Source of the DNA: Halorussus salilacus
GTDB taxonomy: Archaea; Halobacteriota; Halobacteria; Halobacteriales; Haladaptataceae
Assembly: GCF_024138125.1 (NCBI RefSeq)
Contig: NZ_CP099993.1
Span: 2,232,001 to 2,296,000, forward strand
DNA length: 64,000 bases
Direction of reading: 5' to 3'
Positions 2,772-42,140 of this stretch are shown piece after piece. The position numbers were made by a program, and so were the translations under genes. The notes below the pieces were generated by a model. That model was given only the letters and a program-made list of their open reading frames with translations, was not told the DNA's origin and made no database searches. Position 1 is the first letter of the stretch, and every line of letters starts with the position of its first letter.

Positions 2772-3932
2772 ATGGCGAGCGAACTGGCCGAACTCGCGGC
2801 CGACCTCGTCCGCATCGAGACCGAGAACCCGCCGGGCGACGAGGCCCCCTGCGCGGAGTTCGTGGCCGAGTGGTTCGACGAGTGCGGCGTCGACGCCGCG
2901 CTCGTCGAGGAACCGGACCCCGAGCGCCCGCAGGCGGTCGCGACGGTCGGGGACCCCGAGGGCGAGGGCCCGACGCTCGTCCTCAACGGCCACACCGACG
3001 TTGTGCCCGCGGGCGACCGCGAGGCGTGGAGTCACGACCCCTACGCCGGTGAAATCACCGACGGCCGTCTCTACGGCCGGGGCGCGGTCGACATGAAGAC
3101 CGGCCTCGCACTCGCGATGCTCGCGGCGCGGGACCTCGCGCCCGACATCGAGTCGGGCGACCTCGACGGCGCGCTCCGGGTCCACGCCGCGATGGGCGAG
3201 GAGACCGGCGACCCCGGCACCCGCGCGCTCCTCGACGCGGGCTACGGCGGCGACGTCGCGGTCGTCCTCGAACCCACCGACTTCCGGGTCGCCACCCGGG
3301 CGAAGGGGGTCGCCACCTACCGGGTCGGCGTCTCGGGCGCGGCCTCCCACGCCAGCCACCCCGACGAGGGGACGAACGCGCTCGATTCGGCCCGGCCCGT
3401 GCTCGACGCCATCGACGCCTACGACGCCCGGCTCCGCGAGCGCGAGGACGACCTCTGCGGCCGGGCGTACGCCACCGTCACCGAGTTCGAGGCGGGCACC
3501 GACTCGAACATGGCCGTCATCCCCGAGCGCGCGGAGTTCCTGCTCGACCGGCGCATCCTCCCCGACGAGGAGTTCGGGGCGGTCGAGGACGAACTCGACG
3601 ACCTGTTCGCGAGCGTCGAGCGCGAGGCGGGCGTCGAGACCCACCGCGAACTGGTCCAGCACTACGCCTCCGCGGGGATTCCCGACGACGCGCCGGTCGC
3701 CCGGCGATTCAGGGCGCTGTCGGCCGAGCTGGCCGACGCCCCCGACGAGCCGTGGGGGATGGAGGCCGCGACCGACGCCCGGGAGTTCGTGAAAGACGGT
3801 ACCGACGCCATCATCTGGGGGCCGGGGAACCTCTCGCAGGCCCACGCCGCCGACGAGTACGTCGAACTCGACGACGCCGCGCTCGGTCTGGAGATTCTCG
3901 AACGGGCGGCGCGCGAACTGCTGTCGGCGTAG
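2772..3932 (+). CDS. M20 family metallopeptidase (ArgE/DapE type)
   Basis: This 386-residue protein shows the full di-zinc set of the ArgE/DapE family: NGHTDVVP (H74, D76), GAVDMKTG (D107), AMGEETGDPG (catalytic and metal Glu at 143-144), and a late AHAADEY histidine. The dimerisation domain lies at about 175-290 and includes GAASHASHPDEG. It probably removes an acyl group from an amino acid such as N-succinyl-diaminopimelate or N-acetyl-ornithine; the exact substrate is not readable. A GTG at 2766 overlaps the upstream stop codon, but the ATG at 2772 is a more conventional start. Confidence 0.88.
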   Translation: MASELAELAADLVRIETENPPGDEAPCAEFVAEWFDECGVDAALVEEPDPERPQAVATVGDPEGEGPTLVLNGHTDVVPAGDREAWSHDPYAGEITDGRLYGRGAVDMKTGLALAMLAARDLAPDIESGDLDGALRVHAAMGEETGDPGTRALLDAGYGGDVAVVLEPTDFRVATRAKGVATYRVGVSGAASHASHPDEGTNALDSARPVLDAIDAYDARLREREDDLCGRAYATVTEFEAGTDSNMAVIPERAEFLLDRRILPDEEFGAVEDELDDLFASVEREAGVETHRELVQHYASAGIPDDAPVARRFRALSAELADAPDEPWGMEAATDAREFVKDGTDAIIWGPGNLSQAHAADEYVELDDAALGLEILERAARELLSA

Positions 3933-4013
3933 CGGGCCGGGTCGGGCGACGCTCGGCTCGACCTTCGTCGGGGAACCGCAACCGTAATTGTCGCCCCGCG
4001 AACCGTCACCAGT

Positions 4014-4667
4014 ATGCTGACGGAACTCGCCCGAGCGTACTCGGCGGTGTTCGCGCCCGAGCTGTTCGTCCTCGTCTGCACGCTCGCGCTCGCCGCCTAC
4101 GAGCTGCGCGCCGGGTCGGCCGCGACGCGGCCGACCCGGCGCGAATCCGAGACGACCCGGCGCGAATCCGGGTCTCGCATCGCCTCGCTGGTCGCTCGCG
4201 TCGGCCCGCGCCTGCTCACCGTGGTCGTCGGGTGGGCGGTCGCGTTCGCCATCTACCAGTCGACCGACCTCCTGTTCGACCCCGTCCCGGCGTGGGGGTC
4301 GGACCTCACCGGGAGCCTCGGGGTCGGAATCGGCATGCTCCTCATCGGCGTCGCGTGGTGGGCCCGCGGGTGGGGGACTCACGTCCCGCGGTTCGCCGCG
4401 GTGCTGTTCGCGGTCACGGTCGTCCACGCCGCGGTGACGCCGTTCTGGGACGCGTCGAGCCACGTCGCGTACACCGCGGCTCCGGCGGGCTACCTCGCGG
4501 TGGCCGACCGGCGGTTCGCGCCCGTGCTGGCGGTGCCGGTCGGCATGGTCGCGGCCCGACCGCTCGCTGGCGCGCACACATGGCTCGAATCGGTCGGGGG
4601 GTTCGCACTCGCGGCCGTCTTCGTCGCCGCGGTGCTCGTCCGGTCGCCCGCGGCTCGCGCGGAGTGA
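4014..4667 (+). CDS. Multi-pass membrane protein, possibly degenerate PAP2-like
   Basis: This 217-residue protein has about six hydrophobic segments and an Arg/Glu-rich duplicated loop (TRRESETTRRES) near residue 42. The order SSHV ... RPLAGAHTWLESVGGFALA in the last third resembles the PSGH and SRxxxxxHxxxD motifs of PAP2 phosphatases, but the residues do not match well, so catalytic activity is doubtful. No other family is recognised. It follows the M20 gene by about 80 bases with its own start. Confidence 0.6.
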   Translation: MLTELARAYSAVFAPELFVLVCTLALAAYELRAGSAATRPTRRESETTRRESGSRIASLVARVGPRLLTVVVGWAVAFAIYQSTDLLFDPVPAWGSDLTGSLGVGIGMLLIGVAWWARGWGTHVPRFAAVLFAVTVVHAAVTPFWDASSHVAYTAAPAGYLAVADRRFAPVLAVPVGMVAARPLAGAHTWLESVGGFALAAVFVAAVLVRSPAARAE

Positions 4668-31819: not shown

Positions 31820-32115
31820 ACGATATCTCATCTCCGATTTTGTCGTCGCGGCACTATCTAGTTGAGCCCGTCTGAGGAACGAGCGGGCCGTTGAGCGTCT
31901 CGGCCCGGACGCTCACAGACCTGCTCACGAGGGCTATGAGGCGGGGTTAGAAGAATCTTGGGAGGTGGACGGCGACGCCAATGTTGTGGCCTTCGGATAG
32001 CCCGTGGAACGAGCACAGTACGTCGCGATAGCGTTCGCGCCCGCTTGCGAGTCGTTCTGGAAATTCCGGAAACGAGCCCTCCTCTTTATGTGCTATCGGC
32101 CAGATACCGCAACCA
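31820..32115. other. 296-base gene-free spacer, possible decayed mobile-element sequence
   Basis: No complete gene is seen. One short frame ends WEVDGDANVVAFG (stop near 31998), which loosely resembles haloarchaeal transposase C-termini, but the match is too short to call. ggaaattccggaaac near 32060 is a weak palindrome before the Orc1-like gene. Confidence 0.4.
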
Positions 32116-33144
32116 ATGATAACCGATGCTCGCGTTCTCCGGACCGGGTTCGTCCCCCACGAAGTCGAGCATCGAGACGCGGAAGTCACCCACCTCACCG
32201 AGATTCTCGCCCCGCTCACCGACGGCGACCCGGCCGACACGACGCTCCTGCTGGGTCCCTCGGGCGTCGGGAAGACGTGCCTCGCGAAGCACACCGCCCA
32301 GAAGCTCCGTCAAGAAGTCCTCGACGTCGAGTACCAGTACGTCAACTGCTGGCAGAACTTCTCGGAGTTCCGGACCCTCTATCGCATCCTCGAAGGTCTG
32401 GGCAAGACCATCGACATCCACCGCCAGTCGACGCCGCGCGACGAACTCTTCGAGCGCCTCCGGACGTACGACGGTCCGCCCTGCGTGGTCATCCTCGACG
32501 AGGCCGACCAACTGGAGGACAAGAACCTTCTCTACCACCTCCACGAACTCCCGCAGTTCTCGATGCTCCTCATCGCCAACCGCGAACAAGAACTATTTGC
32601 GAGCGCCGACGAGCGCCTGACCAGTCGGCTCACGGGCTGTGAGCGCGTCCGCTTCGACCGGTACGCCCCCGACGAACTCGTCTCGATCATGGACGCGCGG
32701 GTTCGTGCAGGCCTCGAAGACGACGTGATCTCCCGCGAGCAGTTGCGGCGGGTCGCCGACGCCGCCGCGGGCGACGCTCGCGTGGCGCTCAGCATCCTTC
32801 GCACGGCCGCTCGACAGGCGCATCGGAACTACGAACCCGAGATTACGGACGAAATCGTCGATGCGTCGATTCCGCGAGCGCGTGCCGAACGCCACCAGAA
32901 GGACGTCGAGACGCTCAAGCCTCACCAGCGGACGCTCTACGAGATCATCGAGGAACACGGCGAAATCTCCCCGAGCGACCTCTACGAGGAGTACAAGTCC
33001 CGGATGGACGACCCGAAGACCGACCGGACCGTCCGGAACTACCTCTCGAAGATGGACCAGTACGACGTGATCGAGGCCGAGGGCACGAGCCGGGACCGCA
33101 CGTACCGGGCGGTTTCGGAATCGTTCGGAAACGTCGATATATGA
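32116..33144 (+). CDS. Orc1/Cdc6-family AAA+ ATPase
   Basis: This 342-residue protein has a Walker A GPSGVGKT at 47-54, Walker B VVILDEAD at 123-130, a sensor-1 region MLLIANRE and a sensor-2 Arg in GDARVALSILRTAAR. A C-terminal winged helix (about 255-330: LKPHQRTLYEIIEEHGEISPSDLYEEY) follows. This order is that of archaeal initiators, but it is short compared with the usual 400 or so residues. It may bind DNA and act in replication or as a locus-specific regulator. No clear repeated origin boxes are seen beside it. Confidence 0.85.
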   Translation: MITDARVLRTGFVPHEVEHRDAEVTHLTEILAPLTDGDPADTTLLLGPSGVGKTCLAKHTAQKLRQEVLDVEYQYVNCWQNFSEFRTLYRILEGLGKTIDIHRQSTPRDELFERLRTYDGPPCVVILDEADQLEDKNLLYHLHELPQFSMLLIANREQELFASADERLTSRLTGCERVRFDRYAPDELVSIMDARVRAGLEDDVISREQLRRVADAAAGDARVALSILRTAARQAHRNYEPEITDEIVDASIPRARAERHQKDVETLKPHQRTLYEIIEEHGEISPSDLYEEYKSRMDDPKTDRTVRNYLSKMDQYDVIEAEGTSRDRTYRAVSESFGNVDI

Positions 33145-33224: not shown

Positions 33225-34829
33225 ATGCCGTCGACATCAGCGTTATCAACACGTTTCTACGTTCTCTGTGGTGATTGCCTTGCGCTCCTCAGCATTGCTG
33301 GCGTCATCGCTGCAATTCACTTTTTTGTGCCCGCTCAAATCCGCTGGCAATACGCGCTGGACCATGCTGAACCCACTCTTTTGACGATGTGGACATCCAC
33401 ATTTATTCATACCGGCTGGCCCCATCTCGTGGGGAATCTAGTCACGTATGGGCTCGCGGTCTTTCCCGCATGGCTACTTGCACTCCGCCAACGGAGCCGC
33501 ACGAATTTCTGGATTTGCACCCTTACGGTCCTCGTCGTATTTCCATTGCCTCTCGGATTCATCACCGATTTCGCCTTCCAACATCTCTTTCCTGCACTTT
33601 CGACAACGGCCTCGGCCGGTTTCTCCGGTATCGTCGCTAGCTATATCGGTGTCCTCTTTGCGTTCCTCACGACGTATCTCCACCGGCGATATGACGCACG
33701 AACTGCAATCATCGGTACCGTACTCATCATCCTCCTCTCACTCGGGACCCTGCTCGAAACGCACCCACTTACGGACGTGCTCTGGCTGAAAGGGATGATT
33801 CTCGCGAGTCTCGTTGCTGGCAGTGGATTCCTCGCACTCTCGCGGTGGAACCCAAACACGAGTTCTCTTCAGCTTCTTTCCGTTGTGCGCACGCATGGGT
33901 GGTCGCTGGGACTCATCGGAGGTTGTTGTGTGGTAGTGGTGTTCCAAATTGTACTTCTGTTCCCGCACCCATCGAGTGCACTCGGATATATCCCGAACGT
34001 TGTCGCTCACGCGAGTGGACTCGTTGGTGGCTATGCAGTCGCGCTTCTCGTCCGGGCGGCCCACTCGCCACCCCCCATTTCGGTCTCTCCAGAGACGACA
34101 TCTCAGACGCCCACAGATTCTGCCTTCACTGCTCGTCGACCATCACGACCGGATGATTCACCCCCTGCTCGCATCGATTTCGAACGGACATGGTCCGTCG
34201 TCCCCGAGCAGTGTCCACAGACGCTTCCTGTCGAGACGAACCATGAGTTCGTTCGTCCAGTCGTCGCTCATTGGCTCAAAATCACGTATCGAAGCCCGAA
34301 CGACGTTCCACTCCGGTTTCGCATCCAACAACGGAACTCTTCGTGTTGGTCTGGGACGATGCAACTGCCATCGACCGGCGGGCACACCCGGACAACGACG
34401 GTTACCCTCGCGAAGACGTACCTCTCGACGACGTTCTTCCCAAAAACCCACCTGTACAACCGGCATGTCGAACGAACCATTTCAGCTCTCGGCAAATTCA
34501 AAATCCAGTCTGAGCCGTCTGGGACGGTAGAGACACGACCCCCGGGAAGCAAAGACCAGCTAGATACGCAGACGTATACGTGGCTGGGCGCTACCGGTGA
34601 CGGGGACGGACCGAATCATCGGGGCTCCGAGTGGACTCGCCTTTCTGATAGTCCGTCTACTATCGCGGTCCAGACGGGACAGAACGAACGCTCTGAGTCG
34701 AAATTCACGCTAGGTTCGGGGTTCTCGACTCACGGCCGGGCCGTTGCAACAACACAGACATGGGACCCAGCATGGACGCACTACCAACCGCTCTGTGATA
34801 TCTTACAGCATCTCTTAGCGCGGGAGTGA
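33225..34829 (+). CDS. Rhomboid family intramembrane protease with a long C-terminal extension
   Basis: This 534-residue protein has seven or so helices in the first 285 residues. It has the rhomboid features [13 protein letters not shown] (N71) in the early helices, AGFSGI with the nucleophile S134, and [11 protein letters not shown] with the partner H262. Residues 286-534 are a Ser/Thr/Pro/Arg-rich soluble tail with no known domain. Its codon use and composition (many ca-, tct- and at-rich codons) differ from flanking genes, suggesting acquisition. Substrates are unknown; surface proteins encoded next door are possible. Confidence 0.8.
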
Positions 34830-35025
34830 CATCGTCGGCGAGACGACAGTTATTCCCCCCGTTCTAACCGGGATTCTATATAACGGTCTTTTTACCCGAG
34901 AAGTTGATTGTTCCTTCTGCTACTTTCGATGGGATACATGGCTGAGCGACCTAATTATCAGCGATGATATCAGGCCTGTGGTTATTTATCCCTTCTGTCT
35001 AAAAGGCGAGATAGTCAAGCGTCCA

Positions 35026-36417
35026 ATGTGGATGCTTGCGAGAACAATGATACGGAATACACTAAAAAAGCGGTTCGACGGTATCGGTGACCGGTTCCCC
35101 ACCACATGGGAACGCGGTCAAGTGGGTATCGGTACCCTGATCGTGTTCATCGCTATGGTTCTCGTGGCAGCCATCGCCGCGGGGGTCCTCATCAACACGG
35201 CAGGCTTCCTGCAGTCGAGCGCCGAGCAGACCGGCGAGGAGAGCAGTGCGCAGGTGACGAATCAGCTTCAGGTCATCACGTCGACGGGACAGGTGACGAC
35301 TGGAGCCACTGCGGCAGAGGACACCAGTCACCTCGTCACCTTCGAAGGGGACAGTGGTACGACTGAGGACTTCCTCGGAGAAACGACGATAACCGCCACT
35401 GCAACTAACGATGGCGATACAATCGGAGACGGCTCCGGGGACTCGGATAACCAGATCGAAACCACCACTGGAGGGACTGACTTAGTCTTCAGCCCCATCA
35501 ACGAAAGCGCATACGAAGTGTCTGAAGAGGGCGGTGACGCTTCGTTCGTCGTCAACCTGGATGAGGGCGATGAGCTTACTGCCTCCGGCGGAGACATCAC
35601 TCTCGCACTCCCCGACGGTCAAGGCAGTACCTCCGATGTCACCCTCGCTGATGGGACGCCGCTCGCTACGGAAACCGTCGAGCTGAAGACCGCACAGCTC
35701 ACCTACGACGACGGCACCAGCTCGATCGACGTCCTCGACGAGGGCGAGTTCACCCTCTCGGCGCAGTCGTCCTCGGTCGACATCGAGAACGGTGCCGGAG
35801 ACTCCGTCACGGTCGACACGTCCGACGATGTCGATATTCAGGTCGAAGTTCTCGAACCCGACAGCGACCTCAGCGACAACACCTACCGCCTGACGACGCC
35901 CGAAGGCGATTCCATCGAAGTCGACTTCGATAACGGAGACGCGGTCCAATTCACCCAAGACGTCGTGCTGAGCAACGACGGAACCGAAGTGCAGGTTAGC
36001 GATGGTAGCAACTTCGCTGACGAATCCCTCGGACTCGTCGACGCCGACGACGCTGGCAAGGAATCCGCAGTCGGTCAGCTCGAAGTCGTCGTCACCCGCT
36101 CGCCGGGTGCGGACGACATCGACATGGAGAAGACGACCATCAGCTTCATCGCTCCCGACGGCAGCCACGACCTGACCTACACCGACGACGAGTCGCCCGA
36201 GGAGGACAGCGAGTTCGCCGTCTCCGCGATCAAGGACGACGACGACACCGACCCCGTCCTCTCGTCCGGCGACCGCTTCAAGGTCCTCATCAACCCCGGG
36301 ACGCTCGACGCCGGAGCGAACGCCGAGCTCTCGATGACGACGCCGTCCGGCGCGACGAAGGACGTGTTGCTCCGCGTCCCCGACTCGATCTCGGGTCAGG
36401 AAGCAGTCTCGATCTAA
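35026..36417 (+). CDS. Oversized archaellin (archaeal flagellin)
   Basis: This 463-residue protein carries the unmistakable archaellin N-terminal core: ERG then [20 protein letters not shown] and [21 protein letters not shown]. The prearchaellin peptidase would cut between Gly31 and Gln32. Typical archaellins are around 200 residues; here the outer domain is more than doubled and very rich in Asp, Ser and Thr with strand-like repeats (GDxxxxDxxD). ATG codons at 35032 and 35047 are alternative starts with shorter leaders. No arl assembly or motor genes lie nearby, so it may be an accessory filament or adhesin subunit. Confidence 0.87.
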
Positions 36418-36505
36418 CCGACGCGCCTTTTCTTTTCGTACCGACACGGCGATAGATGACGTAACTTTACGTACACCCGAGAGACACACATTACGATACG
36501 AATCA

Positions 36506-38209
36506 ATGACCTCCGCCCTCAGTACCCGACTCGCCGTGACTGCCGTCTGTCTGCTCGTCGTCTGTGCGAGCGTCGGACCCGTCGTGACCGCACGGTCGAA
36601 CGCCGACACGTCCTCGTCGGCGCGAATCGACGGGGCCGTCGCCGCGGCCGACTTCGACGAGAACGTCGTCCGGGTCACGCAGGGCGAAAGCGTCAACTTT
36701 TCGGTATCTTCCGACGCCGACGCGACCTTGAACATCGGCTCGCCCGAGATGGGATTCTGGGCGCAGTCGAACGTGAGCGGGTCGTCGGAGGTCACCCTCG
36801 ACACCTACGAGACCGACGCCGACGACATCGTCAGAGGCGACATCGACCCCGACCTCCGGACCGAGCCGCTCGACAGCCCGCTCGAACCCGGCACGTACGA
36901 CATGAACCTCACCGTCAATGGCAAACAGACCGCACTCGCCAAGCTCATCGTCGAACCGAAGGGCGAGCCCGGGCTCGGCAACGACGTCGACCGGTGGATT
37001 CTCCCGTCGGGCACGGAACTCGACGACGTCGAGGAACCCAGCGAGGTCGACGGTGCGGTCTCGGTCGCGTCCGACGAGGAGTTGCGGGTCGCACAGGGGC
37101 GGTGGGTCGCGTTCGGCGTGAATACCTCCGAGTTCAGCGCGGGGTTCGTGGGCTCGTCCTCGAATGCCACCGACCTGTTTGGCGCGGAGTTTACCGAGAC
37201 CGACCCGGAGATGAATACGGAGGAAAACAGGTTCAACGCCGCCAACCTCGAGAAGGTCGTCCACGTACGCGAAGACGGCTCGGTGTACTTCTTCGTGAAC
37301 ACCGCTCAGCATGGGATCGATGCTAACGAGACGTATCGCGCGAACGTGAGCGTCGTCGGTGACAGTCCGTTCCTCGACGGGCCGGAGTGGGTGCAATCGA
37401 GCTTCAGTGTAGTCCCCCCAAAGGCGGAACTCGTTCATGCTGGCGAGCCAATTCAGCTGAACGCGACCGAAACGCTCCGTGGTGAGACGACGTTACCCCC
37501 CGGTGAGACGGTCAACGTCACGGCTAGCTATGACGGTGTGCCTCCATTCGTCGAGCCCAAAGAGGCAACCGTCGAGTCGAATCAGAGTTTCGCCGTCGAG
37601 TTCGACTTCAGCGATGTGCGTCGGGGGGAGACGGTGGAAATCGCGTTGCCTGACCAGCAGAAAACCTACGACGGTGTCCGAATCTGGGAGGTCCGAATCG
37701 ACCATACTGGCGAGAAAGTCGAGCTCACGAAAGATGCAACGATCACCGGAGACACGAAGTTAGAGCCCGGTTCGGAGTTCGACATGGAGGTCGCCTACAC
37801 TGGCGAGTCTTCGAGTTTCACGAAGCAGAAGACGGTTATCGTTAACCAAGACGGCGAGTTCAGCGCAGACTTTGACCTAGACGATGCGTCCGAAGACGGG
37901 AATCTCTCCATCTCGATTCCGGAATACAACAAGACCGTCCCGGCGATTCTTACGAGCCAAGAAACAACAGATACGCCAGCATCCACTACAACTTCGACGC
38001 CGTCGAGTACAACGACCGAAACGTCAACGACAACCCAAGAGACCACGACGACCGATGAACCCACAGAAGAGACAGACACCGCGACGGAGTCGCCACTGAC
38101 CCAGCAGACTATCCAGGAAAATCAATCCGTCCCCGGCTTTACTCTCGTGAGCACGCTTTTTGTCCTCCTCGCGGCTATCCTTCTGGGTGTCCGCCGGGCC
38201 CAACAATAG
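36506..38209 (+). CDS. Secreted surface protein with BGTF-like domain and PGF-CTERM anchor
   Basis: This 567-residue protein has a Sec signal (VTAVCLLVVCASVGPVVTA), beta-rich extracellular domains, about a dozen NxS/T sequons, a Thr/Ser/Glu-rich stretch (about 485-535) suited to O-glycosylation, and a C-terminal tripartite signal: PGF at 543-545, a hydrophobic helix, and RR. That is the PGF-CTERM signal processed by archaeosortase A, which links proteins to an archaeal lipid. The VRVTQGESVNFSVSSDAD region resembles BGTF/S-layer glycoprotein domains. It follows the archaellin gene by 88 bases. Confidence 0.85.
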   Translation: MTSALSTRLAVTAVCLLVVCASVGPVVTARSNADTSSSARIDGAVAAADFDENVVRVTQGESVNFSVSSDADATLNIGSPEMGFWAQSNVSGSSEVTLDTYETDADDIVRGDIDPDLRTEPLDSPLEPGTYDMNLTVNGKQTALAKLIVEPKGEPGLGNDVDRWILPSGTELDDVEEPSEVDGAVSVASDEELRVAQGRWVAFGVNTSEFSAGFVGSSSNATDLFGAEFTETDPEMNTEENRFNAANLEKVVHVREDGSVYFFVNTAQHGIDANETYRANVSVVGDSPFLDGPEWVQSSFSVVPPKAELVHAGEPIQLNATETLRGETTLPPGETVNVTASYDGVPPFVEPKEATVESNQSFAVEFDFSDVRRGETVEIALPDQQKTYDGVRIWEVRIDHTGEKVELTKDATITGDTKLEPGSEFDMEVAYTGESSSFTKQKTVIVNQDGEFSADFDLDDASEDGNLSISIPEYNKTVPAILTSQETTDTPASTTTSTPSSTTTETSTTTQETTTTDEPTEETDTATESPLTQQTIQENQSVPGFTLVSTLFVLLAAILLGVRRAQQ

Positions 38210-38443
38210 GTATCAGGTCTGACTCGGAACGCGTGAGCAGAGGCGGACCCGTAATTAGAAGGAGAACATTTGGAGAATATAGGGTCTACGTTATAGCTGT
38301 GGACGGTTCCGGTAACTTCTGGAAAGAGAACAGAATCCCAGTTGTCGGCCCGTAACCATCCCGATAGGGAACGTCGGCTCCGTTTTGGAAGTTCTGGAAG
38401 TAGCGCGCCGACGCTTAACCCCGTACCCCGACAATCCGTATCC
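38210..38443. other. Gene-free spacer of 234 bases upstream of the PolB operon
   Basis: No gene is seen. It contains cttaac at 38414-38419, about 27 bases above the operon ATG, a plausible TATA-like box, and repeats of a ttctggaag motif at 38318 and 38391. Confidence 0.5.
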
Positions 38444-39145
38444 ATGCGACCGAACTCACAGACGAGGGGGACCCCGGAACCGGAGCTCCCCGAACTGGAC
38501 GCCGGAGTCCGTTTGCTGAACATCGAGGGCACCGACCGCGCGACCGAGCCGCTTCACTCGCTCGTCCTCGACCACCTCCTGCTGAACGAGGGAACCGCAG
38601 TCTGGGTGGACGCGGGCGGGCACGCGGTCACCCAATCGCTCGCGTCGCTCGCACCGAGTACGCGCGCGCTCGACCGGATTCGCGTCGCGCGAGCGTTCAC
38701 GGCTCACCAGCACTACCGACTCGTCCGACGACTCCGCGAGCAGGTCGGCGAGGAGACGACGTTGCTCGTCTGTCCGGAACTCGACCGGTTCTACCGGGAG
38801 GCCGAAACGTACGCCGACGAGGGCGAGGACCTCCTGCTCAGAACGCTGGCGACGATTGCCGGAATAGCCGACCGCCACGACGTTCCCGTCCTCGTGACGC
38901 GAGCGACGGCGGACTCGTTCTCGAACCCTATCGAAGCGGCCGCCGAGGAGACGATTCGGTGCGAGCGGACGAAATTCGGGCCGCGGTTCGTCGGCGCGGA
39001 GTTCGAGACGCTGGTCTACCCGATGGAAGGCGGCACGGTCCAGACGACGCTGGCGTTCTGGAAGCGCGTGCTGAAAGCGCGCGCAACGGCCTCCGACGCC
39101 GTGGCTACCCCGACACCGGAGGTGACCGTCGATGGGGCGTACTAA
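38444..39145 (+). CDS. RecA/RadA-like protein without a working Walker A
   Basis: This 233-residue protein has the order of RecA-fold strands. A strand LLNIEGTDRATEPLH at about 24-37 is where a P-loop GxxGxGKT should be, but Gly/Lys/Thr are missing. TTLLVCPELDRFYR (105-118) is at the Walker B position. VPVLVTRATADSF, then FGPRFVGAEFETLVYPMEGG resemble the last RecA strands. It would not hydrolyse ATP normally. It overlaps the next gene by 14 bases and begins an operon ending in a divergent DNA polymerase, an arrangement that suggests a polymerase accessory role. Confidence 0.75.
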   Translation: MRPNSQTRGTPEPELPELDAGVRLLNIEGTDRATEPLHSLVLDHLLLNEGTAVWVDAGGHAVTQSLASLAPSTRALDRIRVARAFTAHQHYRLVRRLREQVGEETTLLVCPELDRFYREAETYADEGEDLLLRTLATIAGIADRHDVPVLVTRATADSFSNPIEAAAEETIRCERTKFGPRFVGAEFETLVYPMEGGTVQTTLAFWKRVLKARATASDAVATPTPEVTVDGAY

Positions 39146-39422
39146 CCCGACCTTCCGGGACGTGCTCCGGTCGCTCCGCGATAGCTGGGAGGACTATCGG
39201 CGGGCGCTTCGACGACCCGACCAGGACCGGTTCGACCGACTGTTCGAGGACGCCCGCCAGTACGCCGACGCGGGCGGCTACCTCAACCACCAGAACCCGA
39301 TGGTCGTGGTGCTGTTCTCCATCAGCCTCGCCCAGCAGAAGCGAATCGAGGACCTCGAAGCCGAACTCGAAGGCGAACGGTCCGACGCGCCGGTCGACGA
39401 GACGAGCGAGGACCCCTCGTAG
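39132..39422 (+). CDS. Small helical protein of the PolB operon
   Basis: This 96-residue acidic protein has an amphipathic helix-rich N-terminal half (FRDVLRSLRDSWEDYRRALR, then FDRLFEDARQYADAGGYLNH). A hydrophobic stretch (PMVVVLFSISLAQQKRIEDL) runs into a coiled-coil-like Glu-rich tail. It overlaps the RecA-like gene by 14 bases and ends five bases before the polymerase ATG, so it is translationally coupled to both. No family is recognised; it is likely an adaptor between the two neighbours. Confidence 0.75.
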   Translation: MGRTNPTFRDVLRSLRDSWEDYRRALRRPDQDRFDRLFEDARQYADAGGYLNHQNPMVVVLFSISLAQQKRIEDLEAELEGERSDAPVDETSEDPS

Positions 39423-39427
39423 GACGG

Positions 39428-41539
39428 ATGCCGTACAAAATCGACTTCTTCGACGACGAGGTCGTCGAGTGGTCGCTCACCGACGACGGAGCAGACGCCG
39501 AGCAGGTGCTGGACTACACGCCGACGTTCTACGTCGGCCGTGGAGAGGGCGACCGCGATTCGCTCGCGGACGCCCGGGACGCCCTGAAGCGGTTCCCGAC
39601 CGTGGCCCGGACGGCGTTTGAGGAGTGGCGGCCGGGATTCCGCCACGATGCAGAGTCCGTCCTTCGCGTGGACGTGACGAGCGTCGAGGAGGTCTCCCGG
39701 ATGGCGCGCTGGATTCGCGAGTGGGGCGAGCCCGGCGAGTACCGGTGTTTCAACGTCGACTTCTCGCGGGAGTTCCGGTACTGTCTGGAGAACGGACTCG
39801 ACCCGACGCCGTCGCGCGACCTCCGGACGCTTTCCATCGAGGGGCGAGCCAGCGAGTTCACCGCGGCGGAACTCCCCGCGCTGACGGTCGGCGGCGGGCC
39901 CGTCGCCCGGTCGCCGGTGGCCGCGCTCCCGGAACTGGAACGGCGCATCGACCGCGCCGACCCCGACGTGCTGGTCGTCGACTCGGCGAAGATACTGGCG
40001 GGCCTCCACGAGGTGGCCGAGGGTCTCGGATACGACCTCCAGTTGGGTCGGCAGCCGGGATTCCAGAAGCTGGCCGGTCGGTCCACCTACACCAGCTACG
40101 GACGCGTCGGCCACTCGCCCGCGCGATACAACGTCCCCGGACGGGCGATAATCGACCGCTCGAACACGTTCCTCTACGCGAAGTCGAACCTCGCGGGCTG
40201 TCTGTCCCTCGTGGGTCGGTCGTGGAAGCCGATTCAGGAACTCGGGTGGGCGTCCATCGGCAACGTCCTGACCGCGATTCAGATCCGAGAGGCGCTCGAC
40301 CGGAACGTCCTCGTCCCGTGGAAGGCGTGGCGGCCCGAGCTGTTCAAGTCTATGGGCCAACTCCACGAGGCCGACCGCGGTGGGTTCACCTTCTCGCCCG
40401 ACGTCGGCCTGCACGAGGGCGTCCACGAACTCGACTTCTCGTCGCTGTATCCCAACATCATCTGCACGCGGAACGTGAGCCCCGAGACGATTCGGTGTGC
40501 GTGCCACTCCGAGCGGGACGACGTGCCGGGAATCGGGTACAGCATCTGCGACGACCCCGGATACCTGCCGGACGTCTTGGCACCGCTCATCGACGACCGC
40601 GACGAGACCAAGGGCGAGCTACGGGTGACCGACGACGAGGAGCGACGCCGAGAGCTGGAGGGGCGCTCGGACGCCATCAAGTGGATTCTGGTGTCGTGTT
40701 TCGGCTATCAGGGATTCTCGAACGCGAAGTTCGGGCGCATCGAGTGCCACGAGGCCATCAACGCGTTCGCCCGCGAGATTCTCCTCGACGCGAAGGAAGC
40801 GCTGGAGGCGGGCGGATGGCGCATCGTCCACGGCATCGTCGATAGCGTCTGGGTGACCGCGCGGGAGAACGACGACCAGCGGCCGCTCGACGAACTCGCA
40901 AGCGAAATCTCCGAGGACGTGGGCATTCGCCTGGAGTACGAGGCCGCGTACGACTGGGTCGCGTTCGTTCCCCTGCGCGATAGCGAGGCGGGAGCGCTCA
41001 CCAAGTACTTCGGCGCGCTCTCGGGAGGCGGTGACGACCGGCAGTTCAAGTATCGGGGTATCGAGTGTCGCCAGCGGAGCACGCCGCCGTTCGTCGCGGA
41101 CGTACAGGAGGACCTCGTGGCGGTCCTCGACGAGACGCGCTCGCCGGAGGCGGTCACAGACCGCCTCCGGCGAGCGCTCGGGGCGTTACGGGAGGGCCGC
41201 GTCGACCCGGGCGAACTGGTCGTCGAGCAACGCACCTCGAAACGAGCCGACGAGTACGCCCGTGCGACGCGGACGGTCGCCGCGCTCGAACGCGCGACCG
41301 GCGACGGGCGGGACGTTCGGCCCGGGCAGGGGGTCGAGTACGTCGTGGTCGACGACTCGAAGCGGTCGCGCGAGCGAGTCCAGTTGGCCGACGAGGCGGA
41401 GACGTACGACGCGGAGTTCTACGTCGGGGAGGTGCTTCGTGCGGCCGAGAGCGTCCTGTCGCCGTTGGGGTGGCGGCGTGAGTACATCGAGGCGTGTCTC
41501 GCGGAACGGACGGACGCGAGTCTCGGTTCGTACGGGTAG
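39428..41539 (+). CDS. Divergent family B DNA polymerase (PolB2-like)
   Basis: This 703-residue protein has motif A as HELDFSSLYPNII with D336, a motif B-like region KWILVSCFGYQG (K418 to G429), and motif C as HGIVDSVWV with D472. The usual YxDTDS is changed, so the first Asp is lost but the metal-binding second Asp remains. The N-terminal exonuclease region is degenerate (VDFSREF instead of DIET; no clear Exo II or III). It matches the archaeal PolB2 type, often described as inactivated or specialised for damage bypass. The gene ends an operon with the RecA-like and helical proteins. Confidence 0.85.
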   Translation: MPYKIDFFDDEVVEWSLTDDGADAEQVLDYTPTFYVGRGEGDRDSLADARDALKRFPTVARTAFEEWRPGFRHDAESVLRVDVTSVEEVSRMARWIREWGEPGEYRCFNVDFSREFRYCLENGLDPTPSRDLRTLSIEGRASEFTAAELPALTVGGGPVARSPVAALPELERRIDRADPDVLVVDSAKILAGLHEVAEGLGYDLQLGRQPGFQKLAGRSTYTSYGRVGHSPARYNVPGRAIIDRSNTFLYAKSNLAGCLSLVGRSWKPIQELGWASIGNVLTAIQIREALDRNVLVPWKAWRPELFKSMGQLHEADRGGFTFSPDVGLHEGVHELDFSSLYPNIICTRNVSPETIRCACHSERDDVPGIGYSICDDPGYLPDVLAPLIDDRDETKGELRVTDDEERRRELEGRSDAIKWILVSCFGYQGFSNAKFGRIECHEAINAFAREILLDAKEALEAGGWRIVHGIVDSVWVTARENDDQRPLDELASEISEDVGIRLEYEAAYDWVAFVPLRDSEAGALTKYFGALSGGGDDRQFKYRGIECRQRSTPPFVADVQEDLVAVLDETRSPEAVTDRLRRALGALREGRVDPGELVVEQRTSKRADEYARATRTVAALERATGDGRDVRPGQGVEYVVVDDSKRSRERVQLADEAETYDAEFYVGEVLRAAESVLSPLGWRREYIEACLAERTDASLGSYG

Positions 41540-41583
41540 GGAGATATTTAGTCGTTGAGAGATACGAGGCGAGTACGAGCACC

Positions 41584-42140
41584 ATGGCCGTCTTGGACGA
41601 CCTCTCCGGGTTCGAATTCGAGGACCTGATGGAGGACGCGTTCCGGAACCTCGGCTACGAGAACGTTCGCCAAGCCGAGAAAACGGCCGACGAGGCTCTC
41701 GTCGAAAAGTACGTCGGAGACGCCGACGTGATTTTCCATCAGGCCGCGCAGGCGGGTGTTCGGACGAGCGTCGAACAGCCCCAGAAGGTCAGCGATATCA
41801 ACATCAGCGGGACGCTCAACGTGCTGGAGGCCGCTCGCGATTTGGAGACGAGCGGGTGGCCGTCGCGACCTCCTCGTCGGTGTACGGCACGCCCGAGTAC
41901 CTCCCCTACGACGAAGAGTATCCGACGATGCCCATGAGCCCGTACGGTGCGTCGGATCTGGCCGAGGAGACCCGAGACCCGCTCGCGCCGGACCTGCAGT
42001 ACGCCGAGCGCCGCAACGCCGACGCAGAATACACGCATGTGGACATCTCGAAGGCGAACGAGCTAATTTGGTACGGGCCGACGACGATTCAGGACGGAGT
42101 CGAGAAGCTCACAGAGTGGTATCGGAAGAATCCTGGCTGA
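41584..42140 (+). pseudogene. Chimeric remnant: Mrr-like endonuclease start fused to a decayed sugar epimerase
   Basis: From ATG 41584 the first 37 codons (MAVLDDLSGFEFEDLMEDAF ... KTADE) look like the start of an Mrr-type restriction endonuclease. The frame then joins, near 41694, an SDR epimerase from its middle (DADVIFHQAAQAGVRTSVEQ). Near 41855 a one-base loss shifts the frame, and the epimerase continues as VAVATSSSVYGTPEYLPYDE. YGASD replaces the YxxxK pair, and about 120 residues are missing before the normal epimerase end (ADAEYTHVDISKANELI ... EWYRKNPG). So at least three lesions are present. Confidence 0.8.

Follow-up and report, generated by a model that had tools for sequence, protein, structure and literature searches.

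The three genes at positions 38444–41539 of the window (the whole 64,000-nucleotide stretch of Halorussus salilacus DNA analyzed here) encode an ordinary haloarchaeal example of the published PolB2 mutasome, a kind of system that is already known. What is new, relative to the literature searched, is not the proteins but a conserved operator common to the mutasome operon and to a neighboring Orc1/Cdc6 gene. We hold with considerable confidence the joint claim that the trio has this identity and that the shared operator is real. A preliminary description of this DNA was confirmed in its observation and supported in substance in its interpretation; what deserves further work is the operator together with its candidate regulator.

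All three genes lie on the forward strand. iRadA (38444–39145, 233 aa), a RecA/Rad51-fold protein without a P-loop, was assigned by profile, model and motif evidence; PPB2 (39132–39422, 96 aa), a small arCOG07300-like protein starting with MGRTNPTFRD, by its ORF, alignment and the MGRT motif as in PMC11791011; and PolB2 (39428–41539, 703 aa) by profile, fold and alignment. ORF positions give a 14-nt overlap between iRadA and PPB2, stop codon included, and a gap of five bases between PPB2 and PolB2, so that the tight coupling and the 96-residue second protein that had been described were both found again at the same places. For iRadA, whose stop codon ends at 39145, an alternative longer ORF begins with a TTG at 38342. 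We consider the ATG at 38444 to be the correct start, because the conserved promoter, with its TATA element at about 38413–38419, falls inside the longer ORF. This putative element (GCTTAAC, forward strand, 38413–38419) is conserved in aligned Halorussus promoters and lies about 30 bp 5' of the ATG, from which position it probably directs a leaderless transcript. At 41494–41937 we observed a chimeric ORF, in which a start resembling an Mrr-type restriction endonuclease runs into a fragment of an NAD-dependent epimerase; it is probably a degraded junction.

PolB2 scored 1078.8 bits against the NCBIfam model NF004418 ("type B DNA-directed DNA polymerase", cut-off 692), and its structural model (pLDDT 82.8) gave a full-length fold match to archaeal PolB with an E value of about 1e-39, in agreement with the family B assignment already proposed. 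Across 47 homologues, D336, K418, and D472 are invariant. Motif C reads HGIVDS in the window and HG[I/V][V/I]DS in the homologues, the position of the first Asp being occupied by Ile470 in 46 of 47 sequences and by Val in one, which matches the earlier reading that motif A keeps D336 and that motif C keeps D472 but has lost its first Asp. The exonuclease motifs had been described as gone, and comparison with the family's own PolB3 bears this out: motif I is missing, a deletion has removed motif II, and Asn (42/47) or Gly stands where motif III should have its Asp. The conserved Asp of the D(K/R)-type motif, D243, is present in 47/47, with K or R as the next residue in 22/47.

Profile matches of iRadA were weak, at 3.9e-6 for RadB, far under the curated cut-off, and 6e-4 for Rad51. 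Its AlphaFold model (mean pLDDT 85.7), on the other hand, returned RadA, Rad51, and Dmc1 as the top PDB fold matches, with E values down to 1.3e-11, and the P-loop signature GK[ST] was absent from all 30 homologues checked. On the model and these homologues, the first protein has the RecA/Rad51 fold and has lost its ATP-binding site, as expected of a PolB2 mutasome and in line with the preliminary description. A PIP-like QTT[LIF]xxW motif is present in 30/30 homologues, but is sited at the start of the conserved C-terminal helix; some PolB2 mutasome members have a clamp-binding motif in iRadA or PolB2. The N-terminus of PPB2 carries the arm motif reported for the start of this protein by Timinskas and colleagues (PMC11791011), in a chain of about the expected 90 residues.

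The trio is conserved as a unit. In 78 of 110 loci, which were chosen by PolB2 similarity and are related to each other so that these counts are not independent, iRadA and PPB2 have the same orientation as PolB2 and lie no more than 4 kb from it. The exact 14-nt overlap of iRadA and PPB2 recurs in many genera, and the remaining loci show other fixed junctions. PPB2 was found in 191 of 293 haloarchaeal genomes, covering 67 of 78 genera. At the family level, all 22 genomes with a complete or nearly complete PolB2 carry PPB2 (in one of them, G021, PolB2 is split into two pieces), and four of the five genomes without PolB2 also lack PPB2. Co-occurrence of the three genes, a RecA fold in the first protein, and loss of the exonuclease in the third were the points on which the preliminary description had staked its interpretation, and on each the neighborhood survey, the model, and the alignment came out in its favor. 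Many PolB2 operons are plasmid-borne, with 89 plasmid records covering at least 80% of the protein, whereas the window copy is chromosomal. Viral contigs searched for relatives held none, and a viral origin of the trio was dropped.

Several lineages depart from the standard arrangement. In Haladaptatus-type genomes (G003, G001, G005, G009), PolB2 matches number as many as 42; most are fragments, frequently C-terminal and with stops, and together they form an unusual accumulation of broken copies. Four Haladaptatus loci (L044, L047, L052, L053) combine PolB2 copies with a short PPB2 that lacks the MGRT arm and have no iRadA, and retain the operator directly upstream of PPB2. In three further loci (L137, L143, and L147, in G017:C3, G022:C9, and G026:C1), the operator and the Orc1/Cdc6 paralog are present and iRadA is apparently missing, only about 200–270 bp separate the operator from PPB2, and no full PolB2 lies alongside; the PPB2 arm is changed in L137 (MGPANTAFRD) and L143 (MARTNPRFRD). 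These three are apparently decaying mutasomes or a mini-variant.

Another variation concerns an additional gene. In at least 11 loci, an RNase_H_2 protein of 213–221 residues, typically 214, starts inside the PPB2 stop codon, mostly with a 4-base overlap. Its motifs DIETTGF, NGGFD, and HxxxD form an intact-looking DEDD exonuclease set, and on this sequence evidence it may serve, as a stand-alone exonuclease, a mutasome in which the polymerase has no proofreading of its own. The gene was recorded in Halorubrum-type loci (L075, at 3624–4265, L082, L083, L089, L091, L093, L099, L102, L103, L104, L111, and L112), and in L063 it is placed between iRadA and PPB2. The H. salilacus genome has no homologue of this exonuclease, which therefore does not belong to the system in the window. 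Also recurrent is a DUF7342 HTH gene with a partner weakly resembling the toxin TumE; the pair runs in the opposite direction and separates the PPB2 side from a detached PolB2 (minus strand; L089, 6696–7937; L075, 4322–5404; L098, 6597–7741).

The operator became apparent when the regions upstream of iRadA were aligned, as a strongly conserved block immediately 5' of the BRE/TATA. The preliminary description mentions neither this element nor its presence before the upstream Orc1/Cdc6 gene as well. In the window, the proximal operator GGAAGTTCTGGAA (38387–38399, forward strand), found in aligned promoters and by pattern search, lies 57 bp 5' of the iRadA ATG, and the aligned promoters show a distal copy of the element, GGTAACTTCTGGAA, at 38311–38324 on the same strand. 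Pattern search located a further operator, GGAAATTCCGGAA (32059–32071, forward strand), likewise 57 bp 5' of the ATG of the Orc1/Cdc6 gene. The exact pattern GGAANTTCYGGAA has three sites in the 3.6-Mb genome: 38387, 32059, and one inside a liv permease gene. GGAANNTTCYGGAA, in which the spacer is two bases long, misses the proximal sites and was rejected; GGAANTTCYGGAA fits them. A slightly wider pattern matched in 17 of 18 genomes of the genus, and a reversed control pattern in none. Among the inspected matches, almost all in clear promoter position precede the Orc1/Cdc6 paralog or iRadA, and most of the others recur in the permease gene or fall in other reading frames.

In other genera, the Orc1/Cdc6 paralog is located upstream of iRadA, often as its immediate neighbor, and has a related element. 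Twelve loci have GGAA-N5-GGAA in each of the two promoters, at −57 to −63, against a background of 0.4% per 110 bp. The element of Halorubrum-type loci is CTGAAACGCGGAAGCGACACGCC; its core, [CT]GGAANNRACMC, occurs in 21 of 38 iRadA promoters of this type, nearly all the others being one base off. Across the loci, related elements precede the Orc1/Cdc6 paralog in 31 of 39 cases, against a background of 0.85% of 120-bp tiles. PolB2 itself provides the best internal control: against the same background, the element stands before 27 of 29 PolB2 genes that are detached from PPB2 and need a promoter of their own, and before none of the 51 that abut it. The Haladaptatus loci without iRadA, as noted, keep the operator before PPB2. 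Since the promoters belong to different genes, descent of one promoter is not a ready explanation of the sharing, although here too the loci are related to each other and the counts not independent. The literature searched, including text from PMC4104785 and PMC11791011, yielded no description of the shared operator or of its use before a detached PolB2. In L024, an exact TTTCACTTTCA replaces the GGAA repeat upstream of iRadA, with a near match in L064. TTTCACTTTCA is a motif of UV-induced genes in Halobacterium (PMC2556686), which like the operator stands 5' of the TATA about 50 bp before the start, but its sequence is not that of the GGAA repeat seen in the window and in most loci. Its presence in L024 would fit control by DNA damage.

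The neighboring gene (32116–33144, forward strand) encodes an Orc1/Cdc6-family AAA+ protein, an arORC2-type neighbor identified by profile and neighborhood, and is our candidate regulator. In the window it is separated from iRadA by a rhomboid-family gene, an archaellin-like secreted protein (34978–36417), and a surface-type protein (36506–38209), which together occupy 33225–38209; in L034, unlike in the window, the two genes are adjacent. In the genomes of the family, intact PolB2 was present in 18 of 19 with the paralog and in none of five without it (hypergeometric P about 1.4e-4, calculated by hand and ignoring relatedness). At the order level the match is looser, and the paralog and PPB2 are not strictly coincident at the cut-offs used. 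In Sulfolobus, Orc1-2 binds ANTTTC at its own promoter and at those of other damage-response genes (PMC9738581). The center of the operator reads ANTTYY in Halorussus, a short likeness to that element, and ANTTTC itself occurs in the Orc1/Cdc6 promoters of L036, L038, and L040. As regulation of the Sulfolobus type would have it, an Orc1-type gene and the mutasome operon here have a promoter element in common. With the same operator before the mutasome and the linked Orc1/Cdc6 gene, the paralog most likely activates both. Judging from these sequences and from the Sulfolobus analogy, we give roughly even chances that the paralog is itself the factor binding the operator, and by the same analogy the mutasome is likely switched on after DNA damage, either by the paralog or by some factor common to the two promoters.

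A working model can be assembled from these observations and from the literature on relatives, which supplies the extender activity, the role in mutagenesis, the damage induction, and the modeled complex. PolB2 would extend primer ends beyond DNA lesions without proofreading; iRadA, as a dead RadA, would contact it through a RadA-like oligomerization interface; and one PPB2 of a trimer would insert its MGRT arm between the two near the DNA. A single leaderless promoter, its operator in two parts, would drive the operon; the presumed operator-binding factor is the Orc1/Cdc6 paralog, which, with damage as the presumed signal, would activate its own gene and the mutasome like Sulfolobus Orc1-2. 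More broadly, we tentatively put forward, at a little under even chances, a dedicated, self-contained haloarchaeal circuit for damage mutagenesis. In it the paralog, turned transcription regulator, would act at GGAA-N5-GGAA to control both its own gene and the PolB2 mutasome; the circuit would often be plasmid-borne and play a role like that of LexA-umuDC or mucAB in bacteria. In some lineages the operon would add the DEDD-type RNase_H_2 exonuclease, translationally coupled to PPB2 and possibly supplying the missing proofreading.

A different account of the same data accepts the mutasome as real and assigns the operator to an unrelated regulator; it takes the Orc1/Cdc6 paralog for a replication initiator, connected with the mutasome only through co-regulation or through residence on plasmids. 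We regard this as plausible, if on the doubtful side. In its favor, Orc1/Cdc6 genes mark haloarchaeal origins, and many PolB2 operons are plasmid-borne. Yet the paralog's score against the orc1/cdc6 initiator-family model, 173.0 bits, does not reach the cut-off of 181.3, it adjoins iRadA in many loci, it shares the operator at the same spacing, and the copy in the window is chromosomal.

Other readings concern the polymerase itself. A PolB2 without catalytic activity, acting with the Orc1/Cdc6 protein as a scaffold or as a regulator of replication initiation, would agree with the loss of the first motif C Asp in all 47 sequences and with a role in replication initiation or regulation suggested in PMC4104785, but is hard to reconcile with the invariance of D336, K418, and D472. 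Sulfolobus Dpo2, which has likewise lost this Asp, lacks an exonuclease but is robustly active: it incorporates nucleotides as well as the replicase does and can extend ends that are mismatched (PMC8764526). It is also reported to be necessary for induced mutagenesis (PMC7390963). By analogy, the missing Asp need not imply that PolB2 is inactive, and the activity of Dpo2 makes a purely structural role less likely. We therefore judge a dead or structural polymerase improbable. For haloarchaeal PolB2, we found no biochemistry or expression data in the literature searched; Haloferax volcanii tolerates its deletion (unpublished note in PMC7776575). Of the earlier suggestion of a non-proofreading, possibly mutagenic or structural complex, the non-proofreading complex stands, with support from the literature on the family, and the purely structural option is the less likely one. 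The layout had also been said to recall the bacterial ImuA-ImuB system, on account of a RecA-like protein adjoining a divergent polymerase gene. This holds as an analogy and fails as homology. A homologue of the DnaE2-dependent ImuA-ImuB mutasome calls for a Y-family polymerase subunit, whereas PolB2 belongs to the B family by profile and fold, and we know of no counterpart of PPB2 in that system. We give this reading practically no credence; membership was rejected, and PolB2 mutasome is the proper name.

The shared operator matters because the literature searched yielded no description of a regulator for the DNA-damage response of haloarchaea. It provides a testable named DNA site, a candidate protein, and a target operon, and such a shared switch suggests how haloarchaea may turn on damage-induced mutation. 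If true, the Sulfolobus Orc1-2 idea would extend to a distant archaeal branch that uses a different DNA element.

Among known systems, bacterial Pol V (UmuD'2C-RecA) and ImuA-ImuB resemble the window's trio in pairing a RecA-family protein with a lesion-bypass polymerase, but differ in having Y-family polymerases and other small subunits. Another is the Sulfolobus Dpo2/Orc1-2 system (PMC7390963, PMC8764526, PMC9738581), with a PolB2 polymerase reported to have lost the first motif C Asp and an Orc1-type regulator of damage-response genes that also binds the promoter of its own gene. There, however, the element is ANTTTC rather than a GGAA direct repeat and the regulon is global, whereas in the H. 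salilacus genome the exact element, outside genes, is confined to the mutasome and the Orc1/Cdc6 gene. The match is best with the archaeal PolB2 mutasome, reported by Makarova in 2014 as an operon of PolB2, arCOG07300, and an inactivated RadA, with extra haloarchaeal copies and an arORC2 neighbor (PMC4104785), and modeled by Timinskas in 2025 as a PolB2-iRadA-PPB2(3) complex (PMC11791011). As these two papers present it, that system shares with the window the gene set, the order iRadA-PPB2-PolB2, the dead RadA-family protein, the MGRT start of PPB2, the changed motif C, the dead exonuclease, and the Orc1/Cdc6 (arORC2) neighbor; the proteins show no difference, and what the window adds is the shared operator.
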